Assembly: GCA_027046965.1 (NCBI GenBank)
Contig: JALTWR010000010.1
Coordinates: 1 to 51,590 of the forward strand
DNA length: 51,590 bases
Source of the DNA: Candidatus Altimarinota bacterium
GTDB taxonomy: Bacteria; Patescibacteriota; Gracilibacteria; Absconditabacterales; Absconditicoccaceae
Direction of reading: 5' to 3'
Shown here: positions 8,483-36,224 of the stretch, piece by piece
How the letters are laid out: every line of letters starts with the position of its first letter
Numbering within the stretch: the stretch's first letter is position 1
Program-made: the position numbers and the translations under genes
The notes under the pieces: generated by a model
What the model saw: only the letters and a program-made list of their open reading frames with translations
What the model was told of the DNA's origin: nothing
The model's database searches: none

Positions 8483-10525
8483 ATGAAAAAGATTTTTAGG
8501 GGGTTTACATTGGTGGAGCTAATAGTGGTGATAGCAATATTGGCGATATTGGCTATAACAAGTTTTGTGGTGTTGAGCCAGTGGTTTGTAAAGAGTAGGA
8601 ATATAAGGAGAGTAGCTGATTTGCAGTGACTAAAGACAGCATTGAATAGTTATTATTATAGTAATTTTAAGTATCCTATGCCAGGAGAGGCGATAGAAAT
8701 AAGGGATGAGAATGATGAGGTGATATGATATCAGTGACTATTTGATGAGAGTGTATGAGGTCAGATGAGAGAGGTAACGAAGGTGCCACAGGATCCATTG
8801 GACAAAGAATATTATGGATATAGCATTTTGGTAAAAAATGGAGAGTGATACGAGTTAGTGGCATTTTTGGAGGTAGTGGATACTAATTTGTTGTGAGGAG
8901 TGGATAAAGCATATGCGATAAGTTTGAGTAGTAGGGTACCGTATGTGATAGGAGAATATCAAGAGAAATGAGATTTTCATTTGAAGCCATTGACGTTTAT
9001 TCATCCAGATTATGGAGTGATAACAAGCCTGATACTCTGAAGTGGATGATATGTGAAGATAGACACAAATACATTGACGTGATATGAGAGTAGTGGATGA
9101 GTGGTATGAGGTGTAAATGTGGAGTGATGAGAGTTTTGGGTGGCAGATGTGATAGAAATATATCCGTCGGGAGTAATAGATCCTAATCAGGTTTCTCAAG
9201 CATTGCCAGTAGTTGGCGGAGTAAGCTCTTCTACAGTTTCTACACAAGCCAGTGGTTATATGTGGTTAATTACTTGAGGTGGGTATGATCGGGTTACCTC
9301 TAATATAGCTTATGACAATGGTTTTGTGTATGTGGTTTGAAACGTTCGAGGAGATGATAATATAAATAGCGGGTTTGTTGCCAAGTTGGATATGTCTACG
9401 GCTGTTCCTACTCCTGTACGAGTGACATATATTAGTGGGGTAGAACTAAAGAAGGTAGTTCCGTATCCATGAGGATGAGATTTGTTTGTTTTTTGAAATA
9501 CTCAATGAGGATATTTTGCTAGTGAATTATCGGATATATTTGTCTCTAGATTGGATTCTAATTGAAATATATTATGGCAAAAGGCGTTAGGAGATGCGGG
9601 TACAGATATTTACGAAAATCTATTTAGTGATGCAGCGCGGTTTGGAGAAGGAGACTTGTTTATATTGGGCTATACAACAAGTTCTACAGCCAATAAAGAT
9701 GGTAGGAGGATGTTAGTTCATCTTGACTTGTTAGGAAATCATCTTTTGAAGAGGTATTTGGGTAGTTGATGAAACTTCCAACCTGAATATCTTAAGGCAG
9801 ATAACTTGAATTTTCGTCTATATTTGGCATGAAATACTACTATAGCTCCTTTTGGTTATAAAGATATGTTTTGGTGAGAAATTAGTACAACTTGATTGAT
9901 GCTTTGGGCAAGACATTTTTGAAGCTGAGGAGAGAGTTATTCTTTAGGGTCAGTGGAAGTATATAATAATGAGGGTCTATTAACCTATAGATCTCCTCAA
10001 TATATAAACATAATCTCAGACAATAAAACTTCTTTTGATCAGAAGCTTATTTCAGGATGAACCGCTTATTATTCATTCCAAATGACTACCCTTGTTAGTA
10101 ACAGCTCTTATTATTGGTGAGGTAGATTAGAACTGGCTTCGAAATGAACCTGTTATTGAGTTGTATTTGAAAAAGATTTAGCTAATTGAATTATCCGAGC
10201 AAAGAGATTAGGGGGAGAGGTGTTATTGGTTGATAATATGGTTAAATTATCTAATGGTAGCATAGTTGGAATTGGAAATTGAGGTGTGCTTTTTATAACT
10301 CAACAAAACTGAGGAGCTTGATTTGATGAAAGTGGCCTATATACAGTGCAAGTAGATAATTTAACATGATGAGATATGGATGTTAATCAAATAGAGCAAT
10401 CTACTCGGTCGGACGATATCCCTCCTACCTTAAATACGAATTTGCCATATTCAATAGGATCTTTTTCTCTGGAGACTTTGAATGAGGTGGATTCTTCTAC
10501 GTGTCCAGTGATATTGCCATTTTAA
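8483..10525 (+). CDS. Large type IV pseudopilin with beta-propeller domain
   Basis: 680 residues. The amino terminus is a type III prepilin signal: GFTLVELIVV with the glycine-phenylalanine cleavage site and glutamate at +5, followed by a hydrophobic helix. A globular pilin domain of about 230 residues follows, nearly identical in DNA to that of the gene at 19402. The rest (about 250-650) contains repeats of the type G-N-I-L-W-Q-K-A-L-G and G-L-M-L-W-A-R-H-F-G, as in SBBP beta-propellers. The third copy has CGA where the other two have Trp (codon 10196). It is probably displayed on a pilus or secretion pseudopilus and binds something with the propeller. Translation starts 22 bases after murD. 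Confidence 0.85.
8684..8733 (+). repeat. 50-base identity with 19621-19670
   Basis: This stretch is identical to 19621-19670 within the pilin domains of the two large pseudopilin genes. The surrounding pilin-encoding DNA (about 8500-9150 and 19420-20090) is also highly similar. It points to recent duplication or gene conversion of the stalk-coding region. Confidence 0.85.
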
Positions 10526-19401: not shown

Positions 19402-21399
19402 ATGAAAATAAAAACAAATAAATGATTTACTTTGATAGAGTTGATAGTAGTAATAGCCATACTTGCTATACTATCGGTTACAAGCTTTGTGGTATTGAGT
19501 CAATGGTTTGTAAAGAGTAGGAATGTTAAGAGAGTAACTGATTTAAGCGATCTACAGACGGCATTAAGAAGTTATTATTTTTCCCAGGCGTCGATATGAA
19601 GACCAGGGTATCCTATGCCGGGAGAGGCGATAGAAATAAGGGATGAGAATGATGAGGTGATATGATATCAATGACTGTTTGATGATAGTGTATGAGGTAA
19701 GATGAGCGAATTAACAAAAGTCCCAAGGGACCCATTGGATAAGGAGTATTACTGATATAGTGTATTAACTAACAAATGAGAATGATATGAGCTGGTAGCA
19801 TTTTTGGAAGTAATAGATTTTAATTTACTGTGAGAATCCTTTAACAGAGCATATGCAATAAGTTTGAGTAGTAGGGTGCCATATGTGTTATGAGAATATA
19901 GGGAGAGAGAATGATATTTTTTGAAACCTATGACGTTTATACATCCAGATTTTTGAATGATAACAAGCCAGGTATTGGGTAGCGGATGATATATAAAAGT
20001 TGACTTAACTACATTGACAGGGGAATATATAAGTTGAACTAGTGTGTGAGGCGTTGAAGTATGAGGCTGAGAGTACTGGGTAGCGGATGTGATAGAAGTA
20101 GGTGGGTCTAATGCAGGGAGTATAAATATTGGAGATATAGCCCAAGCATTACCAAGTGTCTGATGAGTAACGCCTACTAATACTACTCCCTCTTCTGTGG
20201 TTGCCGGGGGATATTATACGTTTAGTGGTTTCAGTGTAGCTACTGGTGTAAATCCACTTTCTTCTAAAATGGTTAGGGTTAAGGATTTTAATTGAGATGG
20301 GAAGTTGGATATTTTTTCAACTCAAGATAATCCTTCCTGAGGATGAGGGCTTATACTTTTTAAAGCTAAAAGAAAATGATTGCTTTCCACAGTGCATGCT
20401 CAAATTTGAGTTTCTTCTATAAACACTTTATTTGTAAATGTAAGTAGATGAAGTTTTAGCTGAGTATTTCTTACATGAGATACATTGAGATTGATTGGTA
20501 ATAATCTAAGAGGGAATGATGGATGGAGTATGGAATATTATGATGTGATTTATGCTTGTTCAGATTGGGTTTATTGTATGGATAATTTAAATTTTTGGAA
20601 CATTGCTTCTAAGACTCAATTCCCTTTGAGCCTAGCTAGTTGATATTATATCAAGGCTATAGGAGATTTGGATTGAGATAACAAAGATGATTTGTTTTTT
20701 GAGATCCCTTACTTTAGCGGAAGCGAAATTACTGGGAAAATTGCTGGAATAGCTATAAATCAAGGAAACGGAAGTTTTTTAACCTGATATGTCTGGTCGG
20801 GATGAGTTGTATGGAACAACCCTGAAAAGGTAGTTTGATCGGCTCAAAATATACTTTTTGTGGATATAGATCTAGATAATTATAAGGAAATAATTGTTCC
20901 ATATGAAACAAGAGTAGCGGTGCTTAAGAATGATGGAGGGACTTGGAGAGTTATAAAGTCTTATGAAGTTCCTGAGGGGATAAATGAATTTTATTCTTTT
21001 GAGGATGTAGACTGAAATTGAGCAAGGGATGTTTTTTATGCAGAATCTTGAAGTTATGTAGGGTTTATTTTATTTGATGATAACACCAAGATAAGTTGGG
21101 ATATGCCTTGAATATTCATAGATTTGGATAAAGATGGGGATAAGGATTTCGTATATTTTGATTTTGGTGCTAATCAGTGGTGCTTTGAAAATAACAGTAA
21201 TTGAAAGTTCCAAGGAGCTGACCTTGGTACATGTGACCCAATAAATATAGACCTACCACTAAATTATCCTTACTTCGAATGGTGAGTATATGATTTTGAT
21301 GGAGATGGAAATGATGATTTTTACTTGGTTGAAGTAGATACAACTTATTTTCCTTACTGATTCCTTAAAGTTTTTTACTGAACTTATCATAATCCTTAA
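19402..21399 (+). CDS. Large type IV pseudopilin with FG-GAP/VCBS-like repeats
   Basis: 665 residues. The prepilin motif [10 protein letters not shown] and the next about 220 residues closely match the pseudopilin at 8483. The carboxy-terminal part differs: it carries at least six calcium-loop-like repeats, [59 protein letters not shown] and [12 protein letters not shown], as in FG-GAP/VCBS (integrin-type) beta-propellers. So the same stalk bears another propeller, probably a calcium-dependent adhesin tip. Glycine is often TGA. The stop codon overlaps the glyA start (TAATG), an unusual pairing of a surface gene with a housekeeping gene. Confidence 0.87.
19621..19670 (+). repeat. 50-base identity with 8684-8733
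   Basis: Second copy of the identical stretch shared by the two pseudopilin genes, within the pilin stalk region. Confidence 0.85.
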
Positions 21400-22765: not shown

Positions 22766-23719
22766 ATGGAGGTAAAAGATATACTTTCTTGAGTAAAACA
22801 GGAAGTTGATAATTTTTTATTGAAATTTCCCAAATGAGTAATAATTATTTGGTGAGCAACAGCGACTGGTAAGACAGCATTGTCTTTACTTTTATCTGAG
22901 ATATATCCAGTAGAAATTATCAGTGCAGATTCTAGGCAGGTTTATCGTTTTATGGATATTGGCACAGATAAGGTCCCTTTATCCTATAGAAAGATTATTC
23001 CCCATCATCAGATAGATATTGTTGACCCAGACTATTTTTTTACTGCATGAGAGCGAAAACAACAGATAGAGAAAATAATCCCTCAAATTTTATCTAGATG
23101 AAAAATTCCTATCGTGGTAGGTGGAACAGGACTTTATATTGATATGATTTACAAAAACTTCCCAATGCCCGACGCTCCACCTGATTTTGAATTTCGCAAA
23201 AAGCTTTATATGCAGGAAAAAGAACAACCCTGAAGTTTGTATCAAGAATTACAAAAAATTGATCCCAAAGAGGCTCAAAAATTACATCCAAACTCTTTGA
23301 GATATATTGTAAGAGCTTTGGAAATTTATTATAAGACAGGTAAGCCAAAATCTGAATTTGCTTATGAACAACCGGTAAAACGACCTTTGTTAATGATGGG
23401 CTTACGAAGACAAAAGGATGATACTAATCGTAGAATCAATAAGAGAATTTTGGAACAAATAGAGGAGGGATTGGTGGATGAGGTTAGATGGCTATTAAAA
23501 AGATATGATCCAAGCTTGCAATCGATGCAGTGATTAGGATATAAAGAGATTGTGTGATATCTACAAGGTAAATATGATTTGGATAAAGCTATAGAAATAC
23601 TTAAACGCAACACTCATCATTATGCCAAAAAGCAAAGAACATGGTTTAGAAGATATATATCAGATAGCAAAGTTTCTCCAAAGCCCAATGTGATTTATAA
23701 ATTGTTTAATTTATCTTAA
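22766..23719 (+). CDS. miaA: tRNA dimethylallyltransferase
   Basis: 317 residues. The enzyme adds an isoprenyl group to A37 of tRNAs that read UNN codons. The P-loop is GATATGKT (30-37, with the first glycine from TGA), followed by [17 protein letters not shown] and GGTGLYID, all diagnostic for MiaA. The carboxy terminus has [13 protein letters not shown]. Residue 97, in TAGE-x-KQQ, is CGA where the family commonly has Trp or Phe. It lies two bases after glyA and its last nine bases overlap the convergent surface protein gene. Confidence 0.95.
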
Positions 23720-25255
23720 TAGGAGAGAAGGGATTATTTTTTTGATTATTATTATAGGATTAGTAGCCCATTGATCAGTAGGATTTGAACAATCAGCTCC
23801 ATCTGTTCCTAAACCTGTATCTTGGCAGCGCCAACTAAATGCATCTTCAAATTTGATAATATCACTATCTCATCAAAGTTCGTTGATGATATAGTTTTTT
23901 CTAACTGGATTAGGATCATCTAAGGTATTATAGGTGGCTAGCATTCAATGAATATATAGTTTATGCTTAAATCCTGTAGCTTGAGTTCCATTCCATCATC
24001 CTACAAGTCATCTGATTATAAAATTTCACCTCAACAGTGCACCAAAGGTCACAGGAGAGGTTGAAGCTAGTTCTCCTTGTGAATCCATAAGCTGAGTGTC
24101 TATATTGTTATCTATTAGCATATTTCACTTATCTATAAATACGTGTATAGCTCAAGGACCTTTTTGACTCTTTTTGACAATAAGATTTCCATCTCTTAGG
24201 ATTATGTAAGTGTCTTTACCATCTGTAGTTAAATCTTGAGATATTGTTGCATTTTGTCATGGGGTGATACAATTTATTGCTCACTTACTGATAGTTGTCA
24301 CAGTAGCCTTTCATCTACATAGAATCTCTGCATTTTTGTTAACTTGGTTAATTATTTGAGATATATTGGATATACTTCATCATATTTGGAAGGCAGTCCT
24401 CCTATAATAATCTCAAGTTGTACCGCTTATTTGTCCAAGGTTTATGGTATCTCATTTGGAACCTTGAGAAACACTATAACCTCCTACTATTCCTAGCAAT
24501 GATTTAACAATTCCTCCAAATCAGTAAGTATTTCAAGTTAATCCTGCACAAGCTCATGTAAAATATATTGTTGAAGCATCTACTCATCATACTAAATCTT
24601 CTATATTTGTACCTCCATTAGTAGCATTGATCAAGCAGGTAGGATTATCTAGTTCTCCTCACACAAATGAAACCCCGTATTCACTATCCCATAAAAATCA
24701 AATTAAAAAGTTGCTATTCCAAAACCCAAAATTTGGAGCAAACTTAGTTCGTTTAGGCTTATTTGCTGTTGGATCTAGATCAATTCCTGCCTGTAGCGAG
24801 AATAAATCAGTTCATCTGTAAATATATTTTATTTGTCATACTATGTTGTTGGTATCAATGCTGGGTCATTTACAATCAGTATAAAATCATCCCTCAAGTG
24901 TAAGATCATTGTATCCAGGCCAATAACTTTTGGAATCATTATCCAATGGGTATAGGGCTGTAGCCCTCAGTGGAGTCCAATAATATCCTTTTACTTGCTT
25001 ACCACATTGTACATTAGAAGAGTTTAAGGTGATGTTTACACTGTTACCATCTCATAGATCTTTGAGCGATGTGAGTATAAACAACCCACCAAAATAATTG
25101 CCTCCTACATTAAAATGGGTTAGAGTTATTCAGCTTCTCAGACTTTGAGCTAGCCCGTTTAGTGTGATTGTATAAGCGTTGGAAGCTCCAATTGTAAAAG
25201 CCAGAGCCAAAAATATAGCTCATCCTTTGAGAGAAAATAAATATTTTTTTAACAT
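23711..25255 (-). CDS. Secreted or surface hypothetical protein, 514 aa
   Basis: A basic start and hydrophobic stretch (about 11-27, [18 protein letters not shown]) look like a signal peptide ending near Ala-Tyr. The mature part is rich in Gly, Asn, Thr and aromatic residues with six or more cysteines and no further membrane helix, as in beta-rich surface proteins. More than 30 glycines are TGA, so the gene is almost invisible under the standard code. No family is recognised. A strong promoter lies 41 bases upstream of the ATG. It is convergent with miaA. Confidence 0.82.
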
Positions 25256-30537: not shown

Positions 30538-31404
30538 TTAAGTTAATCTAGGTACTTCTCCCTCTCAAGGTCTAAGATCGGGATTCTCGTATACATTTAT
30601 ATAAATTTCTTTGATCCAATCAATGGGCCTTGAGATGGTGTCTCATGGTTTCATTAATTCATAATTTTGAGGCAGGTATTGGGCAATATTAGAGGATCAG
30701 GCGAATAATAGATCTTGGTCTTTTTTTACAATTAGCTTATAATATTCATAAACCGTGGGGTCTTCTAGCACTAGTTGTGAAACTTGGTGATGTATGTAAG
30801 CCGTGTATTCTTGAGGTTTTGCCAAAAATAGCATTAGATTGTATCAGCTTTTCAAGGCCTTTTTAGGTCTTTCTAAAGCCTTTTGGATATTGTGCGTAGC
30901 ATCTAATTCTTTTGCGATGGTTAGTGCCATAATTAAAGTTCCATTTTTCTTTTCAAAATGTCTAAAGTCTATTCACTCTAGTTGGGCAAGTTTTTTGTAA
31001 TCCAGTAATCAGTTGTAAAATAGCCATCAGTAATATCAACTATAGCTTACCAGTGGGAAAGGATGAGAGTTTAAAGCACTGACTCGTCATTCATCTGTTG
31101 CTCTAAATTCGGCCATAAGCAGGAAAGGGGTGTCTTGATCCATAGCAACTATTTTTTGTTTTAATCTTTTGAAAGCTTCTTTGTCTTCAAAAAATGCCTT
31201 TCCACTAAGATAGTGATTAACTCTGTAAGGAGTAACTAGTAGGTATCCCCAACCATGAGGATGTTGATGCCAGTTTCAGTTTACTCCAAATTTTTTTGTA
31301 ACGTTTGCTATTGTGGTGTCGTGATATCAAGCTTGCCAAAAAGCATCAAGATAATCCAAGGCCTTGGTTTTGTTGGTTCATTCAAGATACAGTATTCTGC
31401 ACAT
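30538..31404 (-). CDS. Class II glutamine amidotransferase-like protein
   Basis: 288 residues. It starts with Met-Cys-Arg, so Cys2 becomes the amino-terminal nucleophile after Met removal, as in the Ntn-type GATase II/YafJ/EgtC group. Further family features are HPHGWGYLL, AEFRATDEG-x-VSALNSHPF and SYSGYYGWLFYNG. The carboxy-terminal 120 residues do not match a synthase domain, so it acts as a stand-alone glutaminase or amidase. It lies between an ATP-grasp ligase and hflX in one operon, which suggests it supplies ammonia to, or hydrolyses an amide made by, the ligase. Confidence 0.82.
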
Positions 31405-31454: not shown

Positions 31455-32867
31455 TTAAGAGCTTGTATGATCAGTTAAGTCTGGTAAGGGATTTCAAGGG
31501 TTTCTCCCAAGAACTACTACTCATTGCTCATCTTTATCTGGGCTGGAGAATGGAATTTCACTCGTGGGTCAAGTTATCTCTTTTAACTTTTTATTACAGT
31601 TTGTGCAGTGTTGATTGATTGCAAAGCTTGGGTATCTGCTAAATTTGGACCTGAATTTATGGGCCAGCATTGCTCCAGACCATGGAGCTGTAAAACGAGT
31701 GTTTGCTTCAAATATTACTATTTCTATATTTTGATTATTCTTCCATTTCCAAGCAAAATCGAATCCTAAAGGACCTCGGTATCAATATTGTTTGAACTTT
31801 TTTGCCAGTCTAGTAAGCTCTTTTATTACTTGGTGCGGCAAAACCATTTCAATATTGCCTTGATGTACTCATCATTTTGTGATGTTAGCTGTTGTAGCTA
31901 TCAAATTGATATTTCATGACTCAGGATCAATAAAAAAGTTAATGGAGCTTTCTTTTCGTAAAATATCATTTGGTCGTTGGTCTGTAGTAAGAGGTATGAG
32001 TTCCTGAATCAAGAAATTTTGAGGTAGTTTTTTATTTTGTTCTCGATTATGTTGATTAATTTCTCATTTGATATAGCGACTATCTTGTGGAATAGATTTT
32101 TCAATAATTCAGATTAGGGTATCTTCATCGTGGATAGAGGTTCAATTAGCTGTTACATTGCTGTTATTACATTTTACAATTACAATATTTTCTCAGGAAG
32201 CTCACTCTCCAGCTTTGATTATAAATCCTAAACTATTTCATTTTTTACATTGGTTATATCTAAGCTTTACCAAGTATATTAATTTTTTTCGTCTTGTGTC
32301 TAAATCTCACTCATTTATTATTTCAGTGTTAGGAGGTATAAATTCTGAGGCTTCCTGTTCCATCAAAAATTTAACTAATCCTACTTTGTCTCATAGATTT
32401 CTAACTAAATTTATAAGTTGTATAAAGCCGGGTTGTTTTACGACCTGCTTTCGGAAGTATTCACTTTGTCAGTAGATCAGAGGTGTTTTCATGTATGGTT
32501 GGAGTTCTTGTCGGTCTTGTGGAGAAAATTTTTGTAATAACTCTTGGACAGTTCAATATTTTACTTTGCTAGTTTCTATATCGATAACTTCAGCCAATTG
32601 AGCGGCGAACTTTTTTTGAGTCTCATTCATAGATTGTGGTAACAAAAATGTATCTCAGAAGGTTCACCGTAAAAAGGCTCTAAGTGCTAGATCACTTAGA
32701 AACTGATCTGGTAAGTTTTCTACTCCATAGACCGATTTAATAGTCGCTATAATAGTAGCTTTTGTCTTTGAAAAATGTTCGGCAACAGCTTCTCTTCAAT
32801 CCTGTACTGTTATAGAATAATAATTGTAGTCGTCAACATTTAACTGAGTTGGTTGGGAGTTTTGCAT
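31455..32867 (-). CDS. ATP-grasp ligase-like protein
   Basis: 470 residues. The ATP-grasp fold shows as FIIKAGEGASGEN (Lys218 and glycine loop 220-226), FLIQELIP (Glu289), GPLGFDFAW (Asp370) and EIVIFEANTRF (Glu387, Asn389). These bind Mg-ATP and make an acyl-phosphate for amide bond formation. The amino-terminal about 160 residues are helical and unknown. A CxxC pair lies near the end (421-424). The substrate cannot be inferred. It is first in the operon with the class II amidotransferase and hflX, behind an attenuator-like leader. Confidence 0.8.
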
Positions 32868-33163: not shown

Positions 33164-33766
33164 ATGGATTGTAAGGAGGTAATTGAGAGAAGCTATACTT
33201 TGGTAAAGACCTTGTTAATGCCGTTAAAGGATAAAGGATACTATTTTCACAATTGGGAACATACTAAGGAAGTTTTTGAAAATGCACAATTTTATGCCAC
33301 AAAATTGCGTCTTTCTTACAGTGATACTTGTAAATTGTTATTAGCAGCTTTATTTCATGATGTGGGGTTTTTAGTAGTTTACAACGGTCATGAGGAAGTT
33401 AGTGCTCAGATCGCAAAAGAGTTTTTAAAGGGGCAGGTTCCTTCGGACTGGATAAAACAAATTATGAATATGATTAGAGCTACTAAAATAGGAGTAGAGC
33501 CCCAAAACTTATTGGAAGCTGCTTTGAAAGACTCTGACGTGGATAATATCAGACGTGAAGATTTTTTGCAAAAGGCTGATTTACTAAAAAAGGAACTAGA
33601 GACATTGTTTAATATGAAATTTACCCCCCAGGAATGGTTAAAAAGATTAGAGGATGTTTTGGAAATAGGAAAATGTTATACTTGAGTATGCGAGGATTTA
33701 AAAAAGGAGGGGCTAAAAAATAATGCCTCTCTTATTAAGCTTTTGAAAAAGGCTAATAAAAATTAA
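33164..33766 (+). CDS. HD-domain phosphohydrolase
   Basis: 200 residues. The HD signature is complete: His33 in FHNWEHTKEV, the central His65-Asp66 in AALFHDVGF, and HEEVS with His76. Such proteins are metal-dependent phosphohydrolases acting on nucleotides or phosphoesters; the substrate cannot be told. It lies 19 bases upstream of the ATP-grasp/metallopeptidase gene and shares its promoter. The last part (about 175-200) is Lys-rich. Confidence 0.83.
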
Positions 33767-33785: not shown

Positions 33786-36224
33786 ATGAATCTGGATTTT
33801 GGACTTTTGTCAAAAAATGCTAGGAACTTATTATATATCAAAAGATACAATCCCAAAAAAACAATCCGTTTGGCAGATAATAAGTTTAAGACTAAACAAT
33901 TTTTAGAAGAAAGAGGGATTCCTGTCCCCAGAACCTATGCATTAATTAGATCGCGTTGAGAATTGCAAAAATTTGATTTTGATATATTGCCTGAAAATTT
34001 CGTGGTTAAACCAAATAGATGAAGCAAATGAAGGGGAATTTTAATAGTTAAAAAGCTTAGAGATGAGGAGGTTAATTTAGTGGAGAGACCATTTTGATGG
34101 TTTAGCTTATCTGGCTTTTTTAAGTGACAATCTTCATTAGAAGAAAACAAGTTTTATTTTAAGGTTTGAGATAGGATTTTGGACCAAAAATCTTTCAAGA
34201 GACAACTGGTGGATATACTAGATGGTAAGTATTCTATCTCTCCTAGAGACGAAATTTTGATTGAAGAAAAGCTTAAACCATCTGAGACTTTCCAGGATTT
34301 TTGTAAATATTGATTAGCTGATATTAGAGTTATTACCTTTAATCTTGTGCCTGTGGCAGCTATGGTGAGGATGCCTACTCCTGATTCTGGAGGTAAAGCC
34401 AATTTGGCACAATGAGCTTTGGGGTTAGGAGTAGATCTTTCAAGTTGAGAGATAAAAACCTTGTTTTTTAAGTGAGAACTATTTGTAGATAAATTTCCTT
34501 CTGATTATGCTCATCTCAAAGGTAAAAAAATTCCTTATTGGGATGATGTTTTGCTTTTTTCTTCCAAAATTCAATATTTTGTCAATTTAGGTTATTTGGC
34601 CTTGGATTGGGTGATAACTCCAAATGGCCCTAAACTTTTGGAAATGAACGCTAGGGCAGGGTTGGAAATCCAGAATGTGGCTTTGGTTCCTCTTAAAGCA
34701 CGCTTACAAAAATTAAAGGATCTGGACATTGAGGAACCCTTAAAGTGAATAGAGATAGCGAAGAGTCTTTTTAGCCCTCAAAAAACCTTCCCAGTTACAG
34801 GGATTTTGTATCTTTCTCAAAATTGAGAACTTCAGGTTCAAAAAGGAGATGAGTTCCTTTCCAAAAATGTAATAGTGAATGTAAATCTAAATAAGCAAAA
34901 AAATTATATTTCTCCTGCGTTAAAAGAAATTGTCGAGGATGCTAACAATATCACGTTGTATCTTCCAGATTCCGGAATAACTATTAAAGGTCCTTCTTTG
35001 GAAGTTGATCCCGCCTTGTCAAATAGCGAGATTGTCATAGGTAGGTCATTGGCACAAGAGTATTTGATTAAACCTCTTAAAAAAGCATATGATTTGTTTT
35101 CTATAGTATCCAAGTCCAAGGTTCAAGAAGGAGAAATTGACTCTTTACAGACTTTAGACCAAAAGCTTTATATTCTTTCAAGAAAGCTTAATCCTTTGAA
35201 ATACATAAGACCTATAAACTTTTGGGATGAATTTGATAATTTTGTTACTTGGCGTGGTAACTATAATCCTAGTTTTAAGTATAAGTGGCCTTCAGAGGAT
35301 AGTCTTAAATCTCGAGAAAAGGAGTTGCTATACTTACAAGAAAAATACTTTACCCCTGGAAGTTGATTGGGAAGTGAATTTGCAAAGATTTTTGAAGATA
35401 AGATACAAGAACTTTTGGATTTGACTTATCTTTTGAGAGCTTACAAGCGTCAAAAATTTGATGATATTCTTAATTACAATATCAGGCTTTTTGGAGAACT
35501 AGATAAGGATTTAGTAATATATGGCAAAAAAAAGACACTAGAATTGCAGGATTCGGCCATAGAGCAAGCTCTAGGTAAACTTTTATCTATTTCACAAGTT
35601 AAGGCAAAGGTAGCTTCTTATCTTAAAAAGTTGGGCATTGAAAATTGGAAGATAGAAATACATCCTTCTTTGGCCTCTAGGATTATGGTTTCAAGGAGAG
35701 GGGATTCGTTGGTGGTTAAATTATCTTTGGAGGCTAAGATTTATGAGTATGAACTAGAATCTGTATTGGCTCATGAATTAGATGTACACGCCAAGCGTTA
35801 TTTAGAATGATTGAAATCTGGATGGAAAATATTACAGAGTGGCACTGCTCACTATATTAGAGAGGAAGAAGGGTTGGCTCTTTATTTTGCTAATCAAAAA
35901 TTGCCTTCTGGATTTGAAAAACCCAATATCTATCTAAAATATCGGGCTTTTGATATAGCTCAGACTACGCCATTTGTGAGGCTAGTAGACTTTTACAAGA
36001 GTCTTTATCCAGATGCAGATATGCTTAAGATTTTTAAACGAGCGATTAGATTCAAAAGAGGAGTAGAAAACACGGGAGTAGTCCACCCATGAGCTATATT
36101 TTTAAAAGATAAGGTTTACTTGGAAGGCTATGAAACTATAAAAAAGTATGTTGAAGAGTGATTTGATCTAAATCAATTGTTTGTAGGTAAGATTAAAAGA
36201 GATGACTTACAATATATAAGATAA
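33786..36224 (+). CDS. ATP-grasp ligase fused to HExxxH (DUF1704/MATCAP-like) metallopeptidase
   Basis: 812 residues, two catalytic modules. Residues about 30-310 are an ATP-grasp ligase of the alpha-L-glutamate ligase-like/sugar-transfer-associated type: NFVVKPNRGSKGRGIL (Lys75), an IEEKLKP strand, ALDW (Asp274) and LLEMNAR (Glu286, Asn288). Residues about 420-812 match DUF1704: HELDVH (663-668) is the HExxxH zinc motif and EEGLA (694-698) is the QEGLA-type motif with the third ligand glutamate. DUF1704 is related to the eukaryotic tubulin carboxypeptidase MATCAP. A ligase and peptidase on one chain could add and remove a terminal residue. Ten or more TGA codons are read through. It is co-transcribed with an HD protein. 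Confidence 0.82.

Follow-up and report, generated by a model that had tools for sequence, protein, structure and literature searches.

A class-wide patescibacterial fusion of an RloC-type ATP-grasp ligase, a degenerate retropepsin-like domain and a MATCAP peptidase, and its candidate role as a writer-eraser

The protein described here is encoded in a 51,590-nucleotide stretch of DNA (the window; contig JALTWR010000010.1 of the Candidatus Altimarinota bacterium assembly GCA_027046965.1) and joins on one chain an RloC-type ATP-grasp ligase, a degenerate retropepsin-like domain and a MATCAP zinc peptidase; the architecture is conserved across the class, and in most relatives an RloB-type membrane protein gene adjoins it. 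We consider it probable, at roughly 60%, that the fusion is a cytosolic writer-eraser of the form taken by the Rlo system in Patescibacteria, with a glutamate-adding ligase, a MATCAP remover, a retropepsin-like scaffold and an RloB-linked product. Both the parts and the idea of pairing a writer with an eraser are already known. The three-part architecture, its spread and the presence of MATCAP in an Rlo system did not turn up in the literature searched, which covered few subscription papers, and neither did any joint mention of ATP-grasp and DUF1704. Retention of ligase and peptidase on one chain in minimal genomes of ~1 Mb argues that both activities share one product, and the fusion offers a single protein in which that idea can be tested. 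If the narrower version of this reading set out below is correct, the MATCAP family, familiar from the tubulin code, would have bacterial members in glutamate-tail writer-eraser systems, with bacterial substrates reachable through the Rlo system.

The gene was read as a single 812-aa frame with TGA as glycine (NCBI code 25), containing 16 TGA codons, and no transmembrane segments were found in its product (Table 1). Under table 11 the same interval is fragmented into short ORFs, and a frame so full of stops could suggest two genes joined in assembly, a risk raised by an earlier note made from the sequence alone, or a pseudogene; every internal stop is TGA, however, which encodes glycine in this lineage, fusion orthologs in code-11 relatives contain no internal stops, and the fusion is present in independent assemblies that include the complete chromosome CP006913. 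Ortholog conservation and the stop-free code-11 copies thus exclude an assembly join, and the probability left to either kind of artefact is negligible. The HD-domain gene directly upstream is at most a candidate member of the fusion locus; among related loci with called genes it did not recur as a conserved neighbour.

Table 1. Features of the fusion gene and its upstream neighbour, in window coordinates.
Feature	Coordinates	Strand	Basis or remark
Fusion CDS, RloC-type ATP-grasp :: degenerate retropepsin-like :: MATCAP	33786..36224	+	812 aa, code 25
HD-domain protein	33164..33766	+	19 bp upstream of fusion, same strand as fusion
ATP-grasp ligase region, aa 1-318	33786..34739	+	Pfam, TIGR02291, Foldseek ArgX/RimK
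Nucleotide loop KPNRGSKGRG, aa 75-84	34008..34037	+	K75, G79, G82, G84 invariant 86/86; K75 = RimK K141
Mg2+ site D274 ... E286-M-N288-A-R290	34605..34655	+	RimK D248/E260/N262 alignment; D274, E286, N288 invariant 86/86
Degenerate RimB/RloA retropepsin-like middle domain, aa 338-436	34797..35093	+	hhalign, profile, predicted fold
Position of retropepsin catalytic D-T-G, reads N-L-N, aa 367-369	34884..34892	+	D[TS]G kept in 6/86 fusions
MATCAP/DUF1704 zinc peptidase region, aa 456-812	35151..36221	+	Pfam, profile vs 7z5g, Foldseek
HELDVH (HExxxH) zinc motif, aa 663-668	35772..35789	+	H663, E664, H668 invariant 86/86 fusions
EEG third-zinc-ligand motif, aa 694-696	35865..35873	+	E695, G696 invariant 86/86; E695 = invariant Glu

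The N-terminal ligase is closest to RloC by sequence and to RimK by fold. Pfam ATPgrasp_ST was matched at aa 123-310 (2.5e-47) and ATP-grasp_3 at aa 30-96, and the best NCBIfam model was TIGR02291 (alpha-L-glutamate ligase-like, the RloC family; 4.1e-54), which at 183.7 bits falls below its equivalog cut-off of 314.2 bits and is still the best-scoring family. Legionella RloC is 36% identical to the domain over 92%. Residues K33, K75, D179, R181, N206, D274, E286 and N288 correspond by alignment to K100, K141, D187, R189, N213, D248, E260 and N262 of E. coli RimK, are also aligned with Legionella RloC, and are unvarying in 86 of 86 distinct fusion sequences. The ligase has the ATP-grasp superfamily in common with the TTL/TTLL family (PF03133), but its score of 11.9 bits, under the Pfam cut-off of 20.1, rules out TTL membership; its closeness to RloC and RimK instead points to glutamate rather than tyrosine. 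The glutamate-ligase-type ATP-grasp core proposed in the earlier note is thus borne out, while the tubulin analogy drawn there through TTL does not hold for this ligase.

The C-terminal region matched Pfam MATCAP (PF08014, formerly DUF1704) at aa 486-811 with an E-value of 1.3e-20 and 74.2 bits against a gathering cut-off of 27, so that both of the families named in the earlier note lie on one polypeptide. A profile of 26 orthologs matched human MATCAP (7z5g) at 3.1e-30, and in this alignment the HExxxH and EEG motifs of the two coincide. The best NCBIfam model for the peptidase was TIGR02421 (QEGLA), at 96.6 bits below its cut-off of 338.65, and the QEGLA motif was not found in the fusion, which carries EEGLA at aa 694-698. 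Tyrosine, too, is removed by human MATCAP and TMCP, which leaves the glutamate specificity of the fusion uncertain. TMCP1/2 are HExxxH...EEG carboxypeptidases, reported in a paper that names deglutamylation in its title (PMC10499314).

Structure prediction with AlphaFold2 on the alignment gave a pLDDT of 84.7 and a pTM of 0.65. When the model was searched against the PDB with Foldseek, human MATCAP ranked first (7z5g, E 9e-12; TM 0.65 on target length), followed by ArgX (1.8e-7) and RimK (3.7e-7), the RimK-RpsF complex included. The fusion resembles MATCAP/TMCP (KIAA0895L, KIAA0895; PF08014) in its above-cut-off Pfam match, its HExxxH and EEG motifs and its 7z5g fold, and differs from them in being joined to a ligase, in the absence of a tubulin and in an identity to human MATCAP of only ~21% in the structural match. 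A zinc site and the ATP-grasp ligands, whose loss the earlier note had named as grounds for doubt, are both present.

The earlier note had overlooked the middle domain, as well as the RloB partner described below. Split ATP-grasp genes of Patescibacteria end with the same domain, in most of them with an intact DTG, and with an IIGRxDLxxFLVDP motif, and the fused domain was aligned with these DTG-bearing relatives by hhalign at 99.7% probability. A profile of the split-relative domains matched the RloA structures 9g58 and 9g59 (4e-6), Pfam called PF05618 in two of them, and NCBIfam assigned the split parts to RloA3/RloA1 and RloB with scores below cut-off. For the predicted fold of the fused domain, the top PDB matches other than LolCDE were retropepsins (DDI1, 1mvp and RloA 9g58), weakly, with E ~6e-3 or worse. 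Given N-L-N in place of D-T-G, no protease activity is expected of the domain in the window protein. A D[TS]G motif is kept in 6 of 86 fusions, the other 80 having lost the catalytic DTG, versus 7 of 9 split forms (Fisher p=5e-6, a count that ignores phylogeny); fusion as the cause of the loss is not established, only one phylogenetically independent pair being available.

Within the class, 118 of 145 genomes contain a match to the fusion protein, and a second scan returned 80 loci, nearly all of them end-to-end matches to the query. Full-length fusions were found in Absconditabacteria/SR1, where the earlier note had suggested looking for them, and also in Gracilibacteria, Peregrinibacteria, Peribacteria and others; viral contigs yielded no relative. 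Both Pfam families were matched in 26 of 26 aligned members, and both active sites are kept in all 86 distinct fusion orthologs aligned, at full-length identities down to ~30%. The invariant residues in both domains argue that both sites are under selection. They also bear on the suggestion that one half is a pseudoenzyme, the ligase alone or the peptidase alone being active and the other half a binding module: degeneration does occur in this protein, as the loss of the retropepsin motif demonstrates, but the ATP-grasp and zinc-site residues show no such decay over that range of identity, and we regard this alternative as very improbable.

PF08014 proteins elsewhere in the phylum, outside the class, are mostly stand-alone. 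With RloC as the root of the ATP-grasp tree, a single supported clade of 32 fusions arose from within the split forms, and two out-of-class fusions were placed elsewhere, although a single clade for all fusions was not rejected (AU p 0.26). The MATCAP tree gave no resolution at depth.

In four of the split loci (L121, L122, L127 and L128) the gene immediately after RloC::retropepsin is MATCAP, and in two others (L126 and L129) one gene comes between them. Upstream of RloC::retropepsin in the first four lies a 7TM_transglut (PF14402) gene whose match to the RloB family (NF052267) is below cut-off. PF14402 was detected in 107 of 140 genomes of the window's class, and an RloB-type PF14402 protein in 104 of the 113 listed fusion genomes. 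Fusion and PF14402 genes share a contig in 85 genomes; in 77 of these they lie within 2.5 kb of each other (<=2.5 kb) on the same strand, the PF14402 gene being upstream in 71 of the 77. The genome that the window comes from has its RloB-type gene on a separate contig (C23; L154:3674-5170), so that here the two genes are not adjacent. This protein and the RloB-type proteins of two split loci (L121:1013-2575 and L122:2060-3655) keep the 7TM part, their periplasmic domains being PKD or unrecognised and without the inactive transglutaminase.

Other genes were observed beside these loci. SR1 RAAC1 has a split cyanophycin-synthetase-like pair, made up of a RimK-like ATP-grasp and a Mur ligase (L160:6707-8854), in the interval that separates its fusion gene from its RloB-type gene; the pair was rejected as a conserved partner, not being general in relatives. 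The gene after MATCAP encodes a protein with an N-formylglutamate amidohydrolase domain in one split locus (L121:5104-6939), as beside alphaproteobacterial QEGLA genes, and a 491-aa chain with two ATP-grasp-like regions in another (L122:6443-7915).

Plasmids of Shinella and Aminobacter carry the order N-formylglutamate amidohydrolase, QEGLA, glutathione synthetase (ATP-grasp), and in a Vibrio plasmid 'QEGLA' protein (L140:5110-7101) an N-formylglutamate amidohydrolase is joined to MATCAP, which makes a second fusion of MATCAP with a glutamate enzyme; bacterial MATCAPs are thus repeatedly found with ATP-grasp or glutamate enzymes. The fusion shares with the bacterial QEGLA (TIGR02421) loci a MATCAP peptidase encoded together with an ATP-grasp enzyme, but those loci consist of separate genes with another ATP-grasp family, and the fusion itself is set apart by its EEGLA motif and its sub-cut-off TIGR02421 score.

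The closest comparison is with rloABC of Pseudomonas and Legionella (PMC12239564; L163), which encodes the retropepsin RloA, the inactive-transglutaminase 7TM protein RloB and the ATP-grasp RloC, in the canonical order rloA-rloB-rloC on a Legionella plasmid. The RloC-type ligase, the retropepsin-like domain and the adjoining RloB-type gene mark the fusion locus as a Patescibacteria version of the Pseudomonas system with MATCAP fused on. Unlike in rloABC, the RloC and RloA parts are joined, the RloA part appears dead in most fusions, MATCAP is on the same chain, and the periplasmic part of the RloB-type partner is PKD-like or other, with no recognised inactive transglutaminase; the Pseudomonas eraser RloA is secreted, whereas the fusion peptidase, without signal peptide or TM segment, is predicted to be cytosolic. 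RimK/RimB, which poly-glutamylate S6 and reverse it, resemble the fusion in ligase fold, catalytic residues and the opposition of a ligase to a retropepsin, and differ from it in that S6 of this genome has no acidic tail and in that the fusion has a zinc enzyme instead of RimB as its intact peptidase.

In Pseudomonas, the poly-Glu that RimK adds is cut by RimB, and RloA can cut poly-Glu in vitro. An RloA-less mutant there regains full hypoosmotic growth, and is partly relieved of its other defects, once rloB or rloC is lost, genetics that indicate antagonism between ligase-side and peptidase-side genes (PMC12239564); no activity of any RloC is reported in the literature covered. This antagonism and the separate-gene versions strengthen the writer-eraser reading, for which the invariant sites, the fold matches to MATCAP, RimK and ArgX, the RloB-type neighbours and the glutamate-related company of other bacterial MATCAPs also speak. 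Points against it are the scores below the TIGR02291 and TIGR02421 cut-offs, the secretion of RloA in Pseudomonas, the non-adjacent RloB-type gene of this genome and the poor fit of S6 and FtsZ as targets. The earlier proposal that one enzyme reversibly adds and removes a residue is supported to this extent, and by the intact catalytic residues, while its family-level comparison with tubulin and TTL is not. From poly-Glu cleavage by RimB and RloA, the rlo antagonism and the carboxypeptidase activity of the TMCPs, we infer addition of glutamate by the N-terminal part of the protein and its removal by the C-terminal part.

On the writer-eraser reading, the ATP-grasp domain would activate a carboxylate with ATP and attach at least one amino acid, glutamate being the likeliest, to a peptide or protein terminus, and the MATCAP domain would take residues off that product. 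The apparently dead retropepsin domain may be retained as a scaffold or substrate-binding module. Fusing both activities would fix their ratio and keep over-modified product from building up, and the product may contribute to cell-envelope or osmotic homeostasis, either at the RloB-type membrane protein or by way of it. Only tentatively do we suggest a narrower version: that the ligase glutamylates a tail, that the MATCAP peptidase on the same chain de-modifies that tail, and that the zinc peptidase has replaced the now-dead retropepsin as eraser.

As to the substrate, FtsZ of the same genome ends in FLRKKLK and S6 in GEMNMS, neither with an acidic or tyrosine tail; these C-termini leave a tubulin-like or S6 target unsupported and rule out both proteins as the obvious one. 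A reversible tyrosination, or another cycle of a single terminal residue on a tail protein, as the earlier note proposed by analogy with TTL and MATCAP, would suit the intact MATCAP site and the weak TTL matches seen in a few orthologs, but by score the ligase fits RloC/RimK far better than TTL, the C-terminal peptide of FtsZ is ordinary and the gene context is glutamate-related, so that we hold it improbable. Unlikely, too, is a free poly-amino-acid or peptide metabolite (e.g. a poly-alpha-glutamate osmolyte or an envelope polymer) that the fusion would make and trim and the 7TM protein export or sense. To our knowledge, the known MATCAP family members have protein tails as substrates, which speaks against such a metabolite, as does the lack of general conservation of the RimK and Mur-ligase pair with the fusion; the position of that pair in SR1 RAAC1, the free poly-alpha-Glu made by RimK and the hypoosmotic phenotype of rlo mutants (PMC12239564) are in its favour.

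Several other proteins of the window were recorded. A 470-aa protein (31455-32867, minus strand) looks ATP-grasp-like by eye (FIIKAGEGASGEN ... FEANTRF), with no Pfam, NCBIfam or PDB match, and the adjoining 288-aa protein (30538-31404, minus strand), which starts MCRILYLEG and is likewise unmatched, has the look of a class II glutamine amidotransferase. A 514-aa frame (23711-25255, minus strand) contains 29 TGA-glycines and has no NCBIfam match. Two very large pilin-like proteins of 680 and 665 aa (8483-10525 and 19402-21399, both plus strand) have type IV prepilin N-termini and contain 38 and 40 TGA-glycines, respectively.
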